Position numbers and translations under genes: made by a program. This document shows, piece by piece, positions 6,424 to 32,695 of a DNA stretch of 35,055 nucleotides (positions are counted from its first letter, which is position 1; each line of letters starts with the position of its first letter). Origin of the DNA: a virus; the IMG/VR virus record IMGVR_UViG_3300029787_000154, positions 1,006-36,060 of that record; one strand, given 5' to 3'. The notes beneath the pieces were generated by a model, which was not told the DNA's origin, searched no databases, and saw only the letters and a list, made by a program, of their open reading frames with translations.

Positions 6424-6823
6424 AAAAAAAATTGAAATTGATGGCGAAAAGGTTCGCATCCTTGCAAGCTTTGGCTGCACCTATCTGGACATAGGCAAAT
6501 ACTACCAATGCGGAGAAAGCACAATCCGCAGACGTTTCAAAGCGGAATTTGAATCTGGGCAAGAAGAATTAAAACTGAATTTGCGAAAAAATCTTTTGAA
6601 ATTAGCGCTCGAATTAGACAACACCGCTGCAAATATCTTCCTCGCCAAAAATTTTCTTGGCATGAGTGACAAGACTGCGATAGACCTAACTGGAAACATA
6701 GAAAGCGTACTCAAAGAGTGCGGTTTTGAGGACAATCCCATTGATCAAACAAATACTGAACAGAGAGAAGCTATGGAAGCTCTTGGGTTATCACCCGACT
6801 CCACACCAACAGGCCATACATAA
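6416..6823 (+). CDS. Terminase small subunit-like protein
   Basis: A 135-aa protein from the ATG at 6416, which overlaps the stop of the regulator gene by 8 bases; ATGs at 6401 and 6404 are alternatives. An N-terminal helix-turn-helix (Ile-Leu-Ala-Ser-Phe-Gly-Cys-Thr-Tyr-Leu-Asp-Ile, then Glu-Ser-Thr-Ile-Arg-Arg-Arg-Phe) is followed by a helical Lys/Leu-rich segment like the oligomerisation part of small terminases. Position immediately before terL, which it overlaps by about 80 bases, supports the call. It would recognise the packaging site and feed DNA to TerL. Confidence 0.72.
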   Translation: MARKKIEIDGEKVRILASFGCTYLDIGKYYQCGESTIRRRFKAEFESGQEELKLNLRKNLLKLALELDNTAANIFLAKNFLGMSDKTAIDLTGNIESVLKECGFEDNPIDQTNTEQREAMEALGLSPDSTPTGHT

Positions 6824-8082
6824 TTCCAAAGCAAGATTTCGCGTCTGCAACATGGGTAGACGCAGTGGAAAATCTTGGATGGCAGCACACGAAATCATCC
6901 CTTGGCTCTTAACACCCAACACACGCGGTTGGATCGTAGCACCTAACTACAACCTAGCGCAAAAAGTAGCTCGTGAAGTAAAGCGTATTATTATTCGCGA
7001 ACTCAAGCTACCCGTAGAAAGCAAAAAAGAGATTTCTGGTGATCTATATTTTATGCGCCTTTCTGGAATCAATTCAGAAATAGCAGTTCGCTCTGCGGAT
7101 TCTCCGGACTCGCTTATTGGTGAAGGTTGAATGGGTTTCCCATTCACTTTTTAAAACTGGCATAGATTACTTAGTTATAGATGAGATGGCCTTAATAAGC
7201 CGTCAGACATATGAAATGTTTTTACGTCCTACCCTTGCAGACAGGCAAGGCTGGGCGTTATTCTGCTCCACACCAAGATCCTATAATTATTTTTGGCAAC
7301 TCTACCAACGAGGTGACGACCCAAAGCATTCCGATTGGGAAAGCTGGCAAGTACCTAGCTGGAAGTCGCCATTTTTTAAAGACGACATAGAAGAACTAAA
7401 AAGGACATTAACTCGTGAAACATTTTTACAGGAAATCGGAAGTGAATTTTGCTCATTTACTGGCTCTGTTTTCAACTTCGATCGCTTTACCCAAGTCAAA
7501 AAGAACCTCAGATACGACCCACGCTTACCAACCTACGTGGGAATTGATTTTGGTTACCGCACAAGCTGTGCCGTGGTACTCCAGTGCCGAAACTACCCCG
7601 ACAGGCTATCAGATATATATCAAATAGACGAAATCTTCTTACAGGATAGCAAAACAGAAGAATTAGCAAAACTAGTCAAAGGTTTGCCATACAATATCAC
7701 CGCATATTTCGGCGACCCAGCTGGTGCGGGTTCTAATCTTCAGACGGGAATTTCAGATTTTCAGCTGTTTTCTCGCCAATACGGAATACGCATCCGCAGC
7801 AGAAAAGATAGACAAAGCCGGGACGTAGTGAACCGTATTAGTCACATGCGCCGTTGGTTTGAGGATGCAAACGGCGACACGCATTTCTGGGTAGCAGAGC
7901 GCTGCAAGAAATCCATTAGCAGTTACGAAAATTATCGCTACCCAACCCACAAACAAGATCAGCAGCTAAAAGAAGTTCCGCTAAAGGATGGTGTGAATGA
8001 CCACATTAACGATGCGCTGGGTTTCATACTTGTAAACTTATTTCCCATTAAGAGTAGAACAGCTGGCATAATCGAGTGGTAA
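6741..8082 (+). CDS. terL: Terminase large subunit, interrupted by a 34-nt element
   Basis: ATPase-nuclease that drives DNA packaging. The first segment (6741-7127) has Walker A Gly-Arg-Arg-Ser-Gly-Lys-Ser and ends Asp-Ser-Leu-Ile-Gly-Glu-Gly before an in-frame TGA. The second (7162-8082, another frame) begins Ile-Asp-Tyr-Leu-Val-Ile-Asp-Glu, the Walker B strand. It carries the nuclease domain with Gly-Ile-Asp-Phe-Gly, Gly-Asp-Pro-Ala-Gly and Asn-Asp-His-Ile-Asn-Asp-Ala. Joining them without the 34 bases between gives a normal 435-aa terminase with the canonical Gly-Glu-Gly to Walker B spacing. The start is taken as TTG 6741 because GAGGA lies 8 bases upstream. TTG 6726 is an alternative and no ATG is available. 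Either recoding joins the halves, or the gene is split or broken. Confidence 0.85.
7128..7161 (+). other. Candidate translational bypass element in terL
   Basis: The insertion opens with TGA directly after the Gly codon GGT (7125-7127). The TGA lies in a perfect hairpin, TGAATGGG-TTT-CCCATTCA (7128-7146), with an 8-bp stem. An A/T-rich linker follows, then GGC (7159-7161), also Gly, after which the terminase reading resumes. Take-off codon, immediate stop in a hairpin and a matching landing codon are the parts of the T4 gene 60 bypass. One tRNA-Gly with a GCC anticodon can read both GGT and GGC. A +1 shift at GGT-TGA also gives an open frame and would add 11 residues. Confidence 0.6.
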
Positions 8083-11309: not shown

Positions 11310-12997
11310 ATGGCTTATACCGCTTTTAGTGGTGATGCGACTCAAGGTTCTGCTGGTGGAGATTTATCTGGTGCTGGTCACGTAGATGTATTTATTCCAG
11401 AGCTGTGGGCCGATGGTAGAATAATGCCGTTAGTGTAAGTGATTACATTAATTATGAGCGCGAAATTAAGCGGGGAAGCTACAGCGAAAGCCATGCCAAC
11501 CCGAACTGAAGGCTGAATGTAAAAACGCAGTCAAGGGCAGAGCGTAGATTGTGATACTGCAATGCAGAATATAATCAATCCAAGAGTTCGCGTCATCTTA
11601 GTAAAGATGAAAAGGTACGCCGATACCCAGTGTAAACGCTGGGATGCAAGATAAAAAACTTGCTATAACATTTGATTTACCGCTATTTCGAGAAGAATTT
11701 GGTTTTCAAGCCTTTCTTCGATGATTACTCAAGTCTTGTAAAGGGAAAAGGTAAGTAATTGCCGTTTTTATAGGTGACTATAATTATGATTATTGCGGAA
11801 TTAACCGGGAAATCTAAGTGCAGCTGCATAAGACAACCCGAACTGAAGATCACACAAAGTGTGACCAAGGGCAGAGCATAGCTGGTGAAAAGATATAATC
11901 CAGCCACGAGTCCGCGACTACTCACGTTAGTAGAAAAGATATGCCGATACTCCATAGAAATGTGGAGAGTTAAGATAAAAAACTTAGCATAACATTTTGG
12001 ATACTTTACACATCCCAACCGTACAAGAAGTTGCTGTTTCAACCAAAACAGAGAATGCTGGTGTTGCATACTCAGTGAATACAGAAACATCAATTGACTT
12101 ACTTATCGATCAACACAAATATGCAGCAAAGCTATTTGAGGACATCGCTATGATACAGTCAAATGAAGTTCTGTTTGACAAGTATGCGCGTTCTATGGCT
12201 TATGGCCTTGCCAAAGCTGTGGATACGCACATCATGGAAGAAATGGACGCTATGGGTACTACCCAAGCATTAGCGGCTGATAACTCTATGAGTAACGCAG
12301 ATGTAGAAACTGCACTTGGAACTTTGATGTCTAATGACATTCCAAAGGAAGAGTGTGCATTCTTTGTGAACCCATTGATCTATGCTGATCTATTGAACTC
12401 GAAAGCATTCGTAGCTGCACCAAACAGTCCAGCGAATTATGCAACTTCTGGTGCATTAGGTAACATAGTTCAAACTGGTTTTGCATCCAATGATGTGATG
12501 GCAACTGGTGAGCTAGGCGCACTTTTTGGCATTCCAGTGTTTACTTCAAGTATCATGTCCACAACGGCAGATACTGGAACAGAAGTGGCATACTTGGTGC
12601 ATAAGAGCGCAATTGCTGTAGCAGTACAGCAAGAGATTAGGCTAAGTAAGTTGGCGTTAGCGTAGGCGACTATGTTAATTATGAGCGCGGAATTAAGCGG
12701 GAAAGCTAAGTTGGAAAATAAGCCAACCCGAACCGAAGGCTACACAAAGTGTAGTCAGGGGCAGAGCATAGGAGATGCAATAATTCTCCCACGAGGCCGC
12801 GCCTACTCACGTAGTAGAAAAGGTATGCCGATACTCCGTAGAAATGCGGAGATGCAAGATAAAAAGCTTGCTGGAACATTTGACAAAGCGAATACAGTGT
12901 CGATTATCTTGGCACAAAAGTAGTCGCAGACGTGATCTTTGGCGCAAAAGCAACAACGAGTAACCATGTAAAAGGTATCGAATTCTTGAATCCGTAA
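11310..12997 (+). CDS. Major capsid protein, four exons split by three group I introns
   Basis: The exons are 11310-11417, 11675-11752, 12000-12643 and 12883-12997, joined to 945 nt encoding 314 aa. Phases agree exactly: exon 1 ends on a codon (Trp-Ala-Asp-Gly), exon 2 supplies Ile-Tyr-Arg-Tyr-Phe-Glu...Lys-Gly-Lys-Gly, and exon 3 resumes Asp-Thr-Leu-His-Ile-Pro. Exon 3 ends two bases into a Leu codon that exon 4 completes before Gln-Ser-Glu-Tyr-Ser-Val-Asp-Tyr. The product reads as an HK97-fold capsid protein, with the Phe-Ile-Pro-Glu-Leu-Trp start and the Gly-Asp-Thr-x-His-Ile-Pro block typical of this group. AAGGAG precedes the ATG, and the scaffold gene lies just upstream. Without splicing only a truncated 42-residue product could be made. 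Confidence 0.92.
11418..11674 (+). ncRNA. Group I intron 1 of the capsid gene (257 nt)
   Basis: A self-splicing ribozyme with no internal ORF. P1 pairs exon GATGGT with GCCGTT (11426-11431), leaving U-G at the splice site. P3 is GCGCGAA (11458) with TTCGCGT (11587). P7 is GCGTA (11542) with TACGC (11616). P7.1 is GATTG (11547) with CAATC (11576), enclosing a CTGC/GCAG hairpin. P8 is CATCTT/AAGATG (11594-11609) and P9 is CCCAG/CTGGG (11626-11643). A 3' helix GCAAG/CTTGC leads to the terminal G. The P7.1/P7.2 insertion and the ending resemble IA introns such as T4 td. Confidence 0.92.
11753..11999 (+). ncRNA. Group I intron 2 of the capsid gene (247 nt)
   Basis: Same family as intron 1. P1 pairs exon AAAAGGT with GCCGTTTT (11761-11768), with one bulged G and U-G at the splice site. 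P3 is TGCGGA (11794) with TCCGCG (11911). P6 is TCACAC/GTGTGA (11850-11864). P7 is GCATA (11876) with TATGC (11940), a compensatory change from intron 1. P7.1 is GCTGG (11881) with CCAGC (11900), P8 CTACT/AGTAG (11918-11933) and P9 CTCCA/TGGAG (11950-11967). It ends ACATTTTG. No ORF. Confidence 0.92.
12644..12882 (+). ncRNA. Group I intron 3 of the capsid gene (239 nt)
   Basis: Third copy of the family. P1 pairs exon ATTAGGCT with GGCGTTAG (12653-12660), with a bulged G and U-G at the splice site. P3 is GCGCGG (12685) with CCGCGC (12797). P6 is CTACAC/GTGTAG (12740-12754). P7 is GCATA (12766) with TATGC (12824). P7.1 is GGAGA (12771) with TCTCC (12785), P8 CTACT/AGTAG (12803-12817) and P9 CTCCG/CGGAG (12834-12851). 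It ends ACATTTG. The 83-codon frame crossing it is incidental. Confidence 0.92.
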
Positions 12998-13014
12998 ACC
13001 TTAGTTACACTACG

Positions 13015-30388: not shown

Positions 30389-30693
30389 AACTGTTCCAGC
30401 CTTTGTGCAATATCTTTTGCATACATGTCTTCATTTGTAATGGGGTTCTTAACCATCAATTGCTGCATCCAGATATGACTAAGCGTTCCAACTAAAGCAG
30501 CAGAAGGTTCATGTTCTAATAGTATATCAGTAGTAATATTGTATTGCGTAGCCAATGCCTTAATCTGCTTAATTGATGGCTCAGTTACTCCTTTTTCCCA
30601 TCTCGCTATTGTTTGTTGATTTACGCCTAATTTGCTTGCCAGCTGCGTTTGAGTATCGCCATGTATTTTACGTAGTACTTTGAGTGTTTTCAT
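30385..30693 (-). CDS. XRE-family regulator (102 aa)
   Basis: The first 60 residues are an HTH_3 domain: Thr-Gln-Thr-Gln-Leu-Ala-Ser-Lys-Leu-Gly-Val-Asn, then Ala-Arg-Trp-Glu-Lys-Gly and Pro-Ser-Ile. The C-terminal 40 residues are helical and may dimerise. It shares its start with the integrase stop, so the two are co-expressed. It may regulate integration or lysogeny alongside the separate repressor at 31862-32695. Confidence 0.82.
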   Translation of the reverse strand: MKTLKVLRKIHGDTQTQLASKLGVNQQTIARWEKGVTEPSIKQIKALATQYNITTDILLEHEPSAALVGTLSHIWMQQLMVKNPITNEDMYAKDIAQRLEQL

Positions 30694-31829
30694 TACGCTA
30701 CCCCCATCTTACGATTAAACGCGCTATCTACACTATCATTAATCTTATCCATAGTAGTGTGAGAAACTGGAGCATAGTGCTTACTTACTACTGATTGCGT
30801 AGTATCGCCAATAGCGTACCCAGCAAGCTGTATATCGCCGTTTTCTTCTTCAGCCAACTGTGCCTTCAGCCTACGTAAATCATGGCACGTAAACTTAATA
30901 CCAGTGACAGAATTAATATCATGGAAAATTCTGCATAATTTTTTATATGCAAATGGCAATGGCTTCTCATTTCCTTCGTTTTTCCACTTACGCAGTATGT
31001 CCATTACAATAGGATGTTGCTTTGCTAATTTGCGCGATTTCTTGCGCTTTGGAAGTAAGCTAATAGTACGCTCATTAAAATCAATATGATGCCACTGTAG
31101 CTCTTTTTTGCGGTTTCTATAATTAAAACCAAGTAGCTCTTTAGCGCGCGCTCCAGTATATAAATATACAGTAAGCAAATCATGCTGAAACTCAGATATA
31201 GATGGGTGATTAAATAGTGTCATAATTTCTTCATCTTGCCAGATTTTAATTTGTATATCCTCTACTTCCGATGGAGAATATTTATCGTTTTTCGTAACTA
31301 CTTCAAAATTAACCATGCCACGGCCTTGCGCGCCGCCATTGGTTAACGCCCACATAAATATGCAGCGTAAGTCACGTAAATAACTGTTAATGCCATTCCG
31401 GGTACAGAAGTGGTCCCGGTATGCTTTATAGATTTCCCAACCTTGCTTGCGACCCGTTTTCATATCCCTGTACATACCGCGAATACTTTCTACTGGTGTT
31501 TCTGGTGGGAATACTTTTAATGCGCTTTTCATTACGGATTTGTAACGAATGCATGTTAGCTCGTTTATTTTGTTCGCCAGTACATTATTCTCATATGCGT
31601 CAAAAACATGCTGTATAGTAATCACTTCATCTACTTGGTGATATAGTGATTTCCACTGGGGATTGCCGTTTTTGCGCCATGTTTCTATTAAGTTCCACTT
31701 TTGCTCTGCTTCGTCTGCTTTGCCTTGCGTAGAACATGCTTCACTTTTCCAAGTGTTGCTTACCGGGTCTTTATACCGCACTATAAATGGATTTTTTGCG
31801 GTGTCTTTTCTTTTGTATTGTGATGCCAT
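30693..31829 (-). CDS. int: Tyrosine recombinase (phage integrase)
   Basis: A 378-aa integrase. An arm-binding-like N-terminus (1-60) and a core-binding helical domain (about 70-190) precede the catalytic domain. That domain has Arg228 in Thr-Gly-Ala-Arg, a Lys cluster at 261-267, His316-Asp-Leu-Arg319 and the nucleophile Tyr352 in Lys-His-Tyr-Ala-Pro. The position usually held by His or Trp (before Ser/Thr-x) appears to be Asp342, a deviation worth noting. It would recombine the tRNA-Arg attP core with the host gene. A ribosome site AAAAGGAAAAC precedes the ATG. Confidence 0.88.
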   Translation of the reverse strand: MASQYKRKDTAKNPFIVRYKDPVSNTWKSEACSTQGKADEAEQKWNLIETWRKNGNPQWKSLYHQVDEVITIQHVFDAYENNVLANKINELTCIRYKSVMKSALKVFPPETPVESIRGMYRDMKTGRKQGWEIYKAYRDHFCTRNGINSYLRDLRCIFMWALTNGGAQGRGMVNFEVVTKNDKYSPSEVEDIQIKIWQDEEIMTLFNHPSISEFQHDLLTVYLYTGARAKELLGFNYRNRKKELQWHHIDFNERTISLLPKRKKSRKLAKQHPIVMDILRKWKNEGNEKPLPFAYKKLCRIFHDINSVTGIKFTCHDLRRLKAQLAEEENGDIQLAGYAIGDTTQSVVSKHYAPVSHTTMDKINDSVDSAFNRKMGVA

Positions 31830-31861
31830 GTTGTTTTCCTTTTTGTTTGTGGTGATTGGCT

Positions 31862-32695
31862 TTAGTCTTTTAATAATTCTATTTTATTTTGTATTGTAAG
31901 TGTATTGACCCCCTTTTTTATCATTTTACAATGTGTAATAGTTTTGCAAGTGTTACCGTTTAATTCGTAATCAACAAATAAAGTTACGTAATGATTGCCA
32001 AGAAAAAATTCTAATAACTCTGCCCCATTTTTTACTCCATTTTTAATAATATCTAAAAATGTATCTGTTAACCCATTCAATACTTTTAATTTTTCAGCGG
32101 TGATAATTTTGTTTATTGGATGTGAGTTCATCTTATAATAAACACTTGTGTCAAAGTATGGCAATAGTGTTTGTAAGTCTAGATGTAATGCCGATGCCAT
32201 CTTTTCAATATTCTTTAAATCGTAAATACGTCTTGTTACTCCTTTTGTTAAGCTAATCTTAACATCAACTGTAGTACTCCAATCCCATGCCAATTGATCA
32301 TATAAAACGCTTTCAACCGTATGCTTTTGAGAATTTTCTAGCATTTTATTTTGCTGTTCTAATTTCGTTATTTGCGTTTCGTATATATCAATTAACTTTT
32401 GTTGATTGTTAATCATTGTGTCTTTTTGTGTGTTCATAATATCCTCTGGTTCTTGTATGTGGTGAGTCACTTCAATGCCATCTTCCGCATGATTTATCAC
32501 ATATCCGAGGTTATGTGCTACAGCTTGAAATGATTTTTGTTGTATGTTTTTTGCATCACCGTTGATCCAGCGGTAAAGCTGCGATCTGGTAATGCCGGTT
32601 TTTTGTTCTAAATCGGTCATATTGTAGCCGTGGTTGTCTATGGCTTGTTTAAGCATCGCCACGACTGCACTATGTTTATTAGTGTAAGTTGTCAT
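31862..32695 (-). CDS. Lysogeny repressor-like HTH protein (277 aa)
   Basis: An N-terminal HTH (about 24-45: Met-Thr-Asp-Leu-Glu-Gln-Lys-Thr-Gly-Ile-Thr-Arg-Ser-Gln-Leu-Tyr-Arg-Trp) is followed by a linker, a coiled coil (about 95-125) and a C-terminal domain of unknown fold with no visible Ser/Lys autocleavage signature. It is divergent from the Cro-like gene over a 100-bp operator region, the classic repressor arrangement. AGGATAG precedes the ATG. Because it lacks a LexA/CI-type peptidase, induction may need an antirepressor. Confidence 0.75.
   Translation of the reverse strand: MTTYTNKHSAVVAMLKQAIDNHGYNMTDLEQKTGITRSQLYRWINGDAKNIQQKSFQAVAHNLGYVINHAEDGIEVTHHIQEPEDIMNTQKDTMINNQQKLIDIYETQITKLEQQNKMLENSQKHTVESVLYDQLAWDWSTTVDVKISLTKGVTRRIYDLKNIEKMASALHLDLQTLLPYFDTSVYYKMNSHPINKIITAEKLKVLNGLTDTFLDIIKNGVKNGAELLEFFLGNHYVTLFVDYELNGNTCKTITHCKMIKKGVNTLTIQNKIELLKD

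Follow-up and report, generated by a model that had tools for sequence, protein, structure and literature searches.

The locus considered here raises the question of how an ordinary large terminase subunit (TerL) could be made from a terL gene whose ATPase domain is interrupted by a stop codon and a change of reading frame. The gene lies in the window, that is, the whole stretch of DNA analysed (35,055 nucleotides of a 36.6-kb IMG/VR virus record). Its parts are the following:

6726..7127, + strand: 5' part of terL, N-terminal half of the ATPase domain (translation; PHROG phrog_2 terminase large subunit, E 6.9e-14); probable start TTG 6726, the first in-frame start
6855..6875, + strand: Walker A motif GRRSGKS (translation)
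7125..7127, + strand: take-off codon GGT, Gly (sequence)
7128..7130, + strand: UGA stop right behind the take-off codon, forming the base of the stem as well (sequence)
7128..7161, + strand: the element, a 34-nt gap, putatively bypassed (missing from L002 and 132 other relatives; present in L068, L082 and L083/L120)
7128..7146, + strand: 8-bp hairpin with a UUU loop, TGAATGGG-TTT-CCCATTCA (folding; covariation over 17 distinct hairpins)
7147..7158, + strand: A/T-rich spacer between hairpin and landing codon (sequence)
7159..7161, + strand: landing codon GGC, Gly (sequence)
7162..8082, + strand: 3' part of terL in the resume frame, remaining ATPase and nuclease domain, stop included (phrog_2, E 3.6e-25; relatives)
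7171..7185, + strand: Walker B motif LVIDE, 3 codons past the resume point (translation)

Translation of the 5' frame ends in ...DSLIGEG*, and that of the 3' frame begins with IDYLVIDE. The original prediction had located the break at TGA 7128-7130 after Gly-Glu-Gly, with a restart at Ile-Asp-Tyr 34 nt on in another frame, and this was exact to the base, as were the perfect 8-bp stem with its 3-nt loop, the stop inside it and the gap ending in GGC. In full, the 34 nt read TGAATGGG-TTT-CCCATTCA-CTTTTTAAAACT-GGC and are followed by the resume codons ATA GAT TAC; the take-off codon stands outside the stem, unpaired. That skipping the 34 nt would restore the canonical junction was borne out by the nearest relative, L002 (94% at the amino acid level over the C-terminal part), which reads GAG GGT ATC GAT without any insert, and the joined window protein is predicted to contain the junction peptide ...SLIGEGIDYLVIDEMALISR. 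Taken alone, the hairpin is modestly unusual (z = -0.63 over 91 nt with dinucleotide shuffles, not significant; z about -2.5 for the element itself with mononucleotide shuffles). It rises above chance through comparison, since like inserts occur in about 50 other contigs and the same element in three further ones.

For this comparison, terL loci were collected from viral contigs using the resume-frame protein and three relatives as queries, and one further locus was taken from a Candidatus Marinimicrobia single-cell assembly. Each locus was aligned to intact TerL proteins by protein-to-DNA alignment with free DNA gaps allowed; pattern scans contributed additional elements beyond this alignment set. 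The site was covered in 182 contigs: 133 had no insert, 48 had one hairpin insert and one (L207) had a 2-nt indel. With L207 set aside, 48 of the 181 sampled contigs carry an insert, a proportion that is no population frequency because sampling was by sequence similarity and partly by pattern. The original prediction had proposed a search for homologous terL genes lacking the 34 nt, and the 133 insert-free relatives are its result. About 50 contigs besides the window, mostly marine relatives, carry frame-breaking hairpin inserts, 35 of them distinct and 24-52 nt long; in the alignment of the insert-bearing contigs the joined proteins were free of any stop. The very element of the window was found again in L068, L082 and L083/L120, from three other metagenomes. 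A sequencing or assembly error in the window contig had been named as a rival, and a single read-level artefact could in principle break a frame in this way; but the same element in three other metagenomes, and related inserts in some 50 further contigs of many metagenomes and in the single-cell locus L213, exclude it down to a negligible probability. A second terL family, represented by L217 and L219 (99.4% alike), has its insert just ahead of Walker A (ETLFGG^SRGGGKT), and relatives within that family are intact at this site. For cultured phages, no frame-broken relative of this terL region was present among the matches listed, and blastn returned no similar element.

The 35 distinct inserts that form our tally are related to one another and do not count as independent observations. 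In 25 of them the gap is 24-34 nt long and UGA directly follows the take-off codon; their stem of 6-9 bp starts at the take-off codon or adjacent to it, is closed by a loop of three or four nt and is accompanied by an A/T-rich spacer. The other ten are longer (gap 45-52 nt, stem up to 19 bp), and their A site holds a sense codon (AGT, AGC, GGT, AGG or AGA) and no stop. Six insert sites are used, namely LFGG^SRGGGKT (Walker A region), SLIG^, GEG^, GEGI^, DYL^VIDE and TTPEG^YNW, all within conserved ATPase motifs. Inserts always start at a codon boundary; the UGA class uses five of the sites, and its UGA is in the take-off frame at each. Gap lengths of 0, 1 and 2 modulo 3 number 17, 10 and 8 (13, 7 and 5 for the UGA class alone); as gaps of 24-52 nt thus occur in all three phases, removal of the gap would not depend on its length. 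A stop in the resume frame lies inside the gap in 17 of the 35 elements; in L005-L010, for example, it is a TAA located three codons ahead of the landing site. Gaps end in C, T or A and never in G, with no conserved splice-boundary base among the 35.

Landing triplets follow the take-off codon closely. They encode the take-off amino acid in 26 of 35 elements, whereas the remaining triplets in those gaps would lead one to expect 3.4; a p-value for this excess would be no real probability, the elements being related. The pairs include GGT/GGC (window), GGT/GGT, GGC/GGC, GGT/GGA (L186), GGA/GGA (L018, L056), ATT/ATC (L005-L010, L026) and TTA/TTA (L152). Nine landing triplets are AGC, TGC or CGC after a GGY take-off, with the first position mismatched and the GC kept; these are predicted to retain pairs 2 and 3 with tRNA-Gly(GCC).

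This anatomy bears on two further rivals that the original prediction had listed. A programmed +1 frameshift at GGT-TGA, as in prfB, would add 11 residues before Walker B, and the +1 frame of the window is open (EWVSHSLFKTG). However, the related elements of 24-34 nt fall into all phases, nearly half of the gaps contain the resume-frame stop described above, and no homolog has an in-frame insert at this place, L214 and the empty relatives being contiguous. The extra residues of a Rhizobium phage lie elsewhere, so that there is no precedent for an 11-residue insertion here, and we regard such a shift as highly improbable. More generally, gaps in every phase together with resume-frame stops make one frameshift or stop readthrough insufficient. 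A split terminase, made as two proteins with the second produced by reinitiation, could use the TTG and GTG that, in the window, precede the resume point by 15 and 14 codons in the right frame. In many elements, though, the resume frame opens 2-9 codons before the resume point with no ATG, GTG or TTG ahead of Walker B; as no start codon lies between the last stop and the motif in these cases, reinitiation would usually delete Walker B, and in L217 the break falls inside the Walker A region. We give this arrangement hardly any credence. With frameshifting, readthrough and reinitiation all faring badly, the gap would have to be removed as a unit.

A long-type terL element is present in the Candidatus Marinimicrobia single-cell contig CACLYL010000043.1 (L213 4946-4991), which provides independent sequencing support; the contig is a possible host lead for this phage group, and the Marinimicrobia genomes searched yielded a close relative only in this original single-cell contig. 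In L038, positions 1-177 hold an unrelated in-frame sequence directly 5' of IDYLVIDE that ends ...QDLQGD, perhaps a longer insertion at the GEG site that the end of the contig truncates. L261 has, near position 2000, a TGA at the Walker A Gly position (GARG*GKTD) in a terL that otherwise matches, and may come from a phage whose host decodes UGA as Gly. In the alignment of L262 (2001-2384 and surroundings), about 1 kb separates the Walker A Lys and Thr of terL, a position that is a classic intein site. The UGA-hairpin pattern matches L216 and L220, as well as L088 and L218, were rejected as lying outside coding junctions.

The hairpin itself bears marks of selection. Across 17 distinct UGA hairpins, both partners have changed in 5 of 8 pairs, and pairing holds in 92% of cells. 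The stem scored 0.311 for covariation against 0.137 for shuffled alignments (0/500 as high), and at most 0.087 with the partner slid, in an alignment that is small and trimmed to the stem, which favours structure somewhat. The loops are mostly UNCG or GNRA tetraloops. This comparative evidence indicates selection on the hairpin as RNA. A covariance model built from the terL hairpins ranked the window site first (15.7 bits), and no new terL elements appeared when it was run on the relatives without insert.

The interrupted genes are maintained. In comparisons of insert-bearing genes, dN/dS lies at about 0.02-0.17 both 5' and 3' of the insert, for example 0.139/0.039 for L126/L133 (27- and 30-nt inserts) and 0.124/0.042 for L016/L213 (83% identity, 46-nt inserts in both); the window compared with the empty L002 gives 0.062/0.072. 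By this measure, both halves of terL are under purifying selection. At the same time, the inserts come and go between close relatives: L146 and L148 are 99.7% identical over 2,347 nt with one 33 nt insert as their sole insert difference, and L020/L022 (98.2% over 1,834 nt) and L024/L019 (97.8% over 4,501 nt) each differ by one 52 nt insert. A codon tree of terL required at least 27 changes of presence or absence, 25 of them forced by well-supported branches. The window element with its take-off codon matches that of L068 at 34 of 37 positions (92%), while the two terL genes are 60.5% identical. Such occurrence of one element in unrelated contexts, the empty sites, and the recurrent gain and loss mark the elements, as far as sequence comparison goes, as portable, and the suggestion in the original prediction that the element may be mobile is thereby supported.

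Mobility of this sort would also fit a MITE-like hairpin insertion at the DNA level that either destroys terL function or is cut from the DNA before the gene is expressed; the exact empty sites (L146/L148, L020/L022, L024/L019) and the high turnover speak for this. Yet the low dN/dS on both sides persists over long divergence, as in L016/L213, and the elements are confined to a few conserved terL sites, with a single clear copy in each element-bearing genome among 20 records. Inactivation is disfavoured by these long-lasting carriers with a conserved protein, and we consider a DNA-level element of this type very unlikely. The count of copies comes from a scan of the 20 whole records for the TGACC...GGTCA hairpin, which found one clear element per element-bearing genome, in terL. 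A second TGACC...GGTCA match was seen at G019:C1 2626-2639, in the record of L204, which also has a terL element. A de novo scan of 1.19 Mb of loci for stop-hairpin-landing signatures outside terL gave nothing convincing; it did return TGATGATG...CATCA hairpins at gene junctions (L019 2829 and L061 5289), which are probably gene overlaps or terminators. The HNH_3 and GIY-YIG homing endonuclease families were absent from the 25 records searched, and thus no mobilising enzyme was found there.

Removal could alternatively take place at the RNA level, if the hairpin is a miniature intron that some enzyme, or a ribozyme acting in trans, cuts out. Such removal would be length-independent and precise, as in splicing, and the same phage has matches to group I introns in its major head protein gene, where the following features were noted:

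11310-13008: major head protein gene (PHROG_267), broken by three related ORF-less repeats of about 240 nt
about 11435-11688: first related, ORF-less repeat
about 11754-11999: second related, ORF-less repeat
about 12658-12890: third related, ORF-less repeat

The Rfam group I intron matches lie at 12634-12851 (E 7.9e-5) and 11743-11967 (E 0.17), both below the gathering score, and the repeats are probably three group I introns. The terL elements, with 24-52 nt and one hairpin, are however far below the size of a self-splicing core, Rfam gave no match at 7128-7161 (no group I intron core), and the gap never ends in the G with which group I introns end. We therefore hold RNA-level removal to be unlikely. 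Elsewhere in the window (30693-32695), an integrase (phrog_1) adjoins a transcription regulator (phrog_8), and the window phage may be temperate.

We consider it likely that the 34 nt are a portable translational-bypass element. Ribosomes would translate terL as far as GGT; with Gly in the P site and UGA in the A site, they would stall. The hairpin, which starts at or overlaps the take-off and stop codons, would form in or beside the A site in place of a tRNA or release factor; the peptidyl-tRNA-Gly would then leave GGT, the mRNA would slide by 34 nt and the anticodon would re-pair with GGC. Decoding would resume at ATA and yield ordinary TerL (...LIGEG-IDYLVIDE...). A slowly read A-site codon seems plausible, because UGA ends only one of the 14 window genes checked. 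Bypass is preferred to splicing or excision as it would explain the codon phase, the A-site stop, the landing triplet that fits the tRNA and a gap shorter than 56 nt, the limit of processive sliding in gene 60 of phage T4 (PMC11194080); all gaps (24-52 nt) are below this limit. The reading of the locus as a bypass site, made in the original prediction, gains from the differing hairpins of the relatives, from the representation of every length class modulo 3 and from the canonical protein obtained once the gap is skipped. That removal occurs on the ribosome, and how efficiently, is what we infer from these features. Against bypass stand the nine landing triplets mismatched at the first position, the ten long elements without a stop in the A site and, in the window, the unpaired take-off codon. 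In addition, the matching of take-off and landing codons could stem partly from target duplication at insertion.

Neither a nascent-peptide signal nor a 5' stem-loop comparable to those of gene 60 was identified in the terL elements, which also counts against bypass. The protein upstream of the site is identical in L146 (insert) and L148 (empty); nothing special was thus acquired there, and the element would either bring its needs along or find them in ordinary TerL, where a native peptide may be permissive. The insert sites in terL are of the kind used by inteins and homing endonucleases. On balance, we favour the view that these are miniature mobile elements, each made of a take-off hairpin and a landing codon. 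They would home into conserved terminase motifs, bypass would render them harmless with no contribution from the peptide of the host gene, and they might serve to block inteins or homing endonucleases directed at those motifs. The blocking role is a reasonable guess and no more, based on the suitability of the sites and on the protection against a homing endonuclease proposed for the T4 gene 60 insert (PMC5009743).

Among known systems, T4 gene 60 (L263) offers the closest design for comparison. Its site consists of GGA followed by TAGCC-TTCG-GGCTATCT. The 8-bp stem begins at the first base of the Gly codon, contains the stop in its 5' arm and is capped by a CC[UUCG]GG tip, which several marine elements also have; landing is again on a Gly codon. 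L102 (GGTTGACC-GAAA-GGTCAATC) and L186 (GGTTGACCC-TTCG-GGGTTAATC) are built alike, with UGA as the stop. Gene 60 and the terL elements share a Gly take-off with a stop right after it, a matched landing and a gap of tens of nt, and in both the insert is missing from relatives of the gene. They differ in the gap (24-34 or 45-52 nt in terL, 50 in gene 60) and in the stop (UGA and UAG, respectively). In contrast to the topoisomerase gene of T4, the terL elements occupy many sites and show high turnover and horizontal spread, and whereas gene 60 relies on a nascent-peptide signal (KKYK) and a 5' stem-loop, no dedicated counterpart was identified for terL. Covariance model R1 of the terL hairpins did not find the gene 60 site in 9 kb, and for this reason we claim a likeness in mode of working and not common descent. 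In the model for gene 60, a stem-loop in the A site mimics a tRNA and starts the sliding (PMC11194080); given the shared design, we propose that the same may hold for terL.

The byp elements of Magnusiomyces capitatus mitochondria (PMC5009743) are likewise short portable inserts that break the frame; byp elements are skipped, and terL elements putatively so. An unused or slow A-site codon is plausibly common to both, and in both some take-off/landing pairs match at two of three positions, as reported for the yeast mitochondrial bypasses (PMC5009743). However, 81 byp occur in 12 genes, compared with one element per genome, in terL only, and the terL elements belong to bacteriophage genes, with hosts presumably bacterial, rather than to mitochondria. 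As no dedicated peptide signal stands out, the terL elements appear to resemble the portable inserts of Magnusiomyces more than gene 60. A bypass has also been proposed in the terminase of Streptomyces phage Hau3 and prophage Strep C.1 (PMC5009743). The arrangement described there is different: the coding gap is far shorter and lies at a UUA codon, a Shine-Dalgarno sequence precedes it, and the bypass is possibly regulatory. Openly licensed PMC papers, preprints not included, contained no report of elements like those described here.

These results suggest that, in a sizeable fraction of the group (48/181 sampled), terL comes out split or truncated when genes are called with standard programs, and such splits matter since terL is a marker gene for finding and classifying viruses. 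A 2016 review presents efficient bypassing as essentially confined to gene 60 of T4 and the mitochondrial genome of one yeast, besides a handful of unproven candidates, and notes a long-standing presumption that counterparts exist (PMC5009743). With 35 natural variants and near-identical empty-site controls, the rules of bypass could be read from covariation and are directly testable, namely which take-off/landing pairs work, whether a stop is needed, and what is demanded of the stem, the gap length and the nascent peptide. Our data suggest that bypass elements can be mobile in phages. If this is true, a near-unique oddity of protein synthesis would become a widespread and apparently mobile genetic element.
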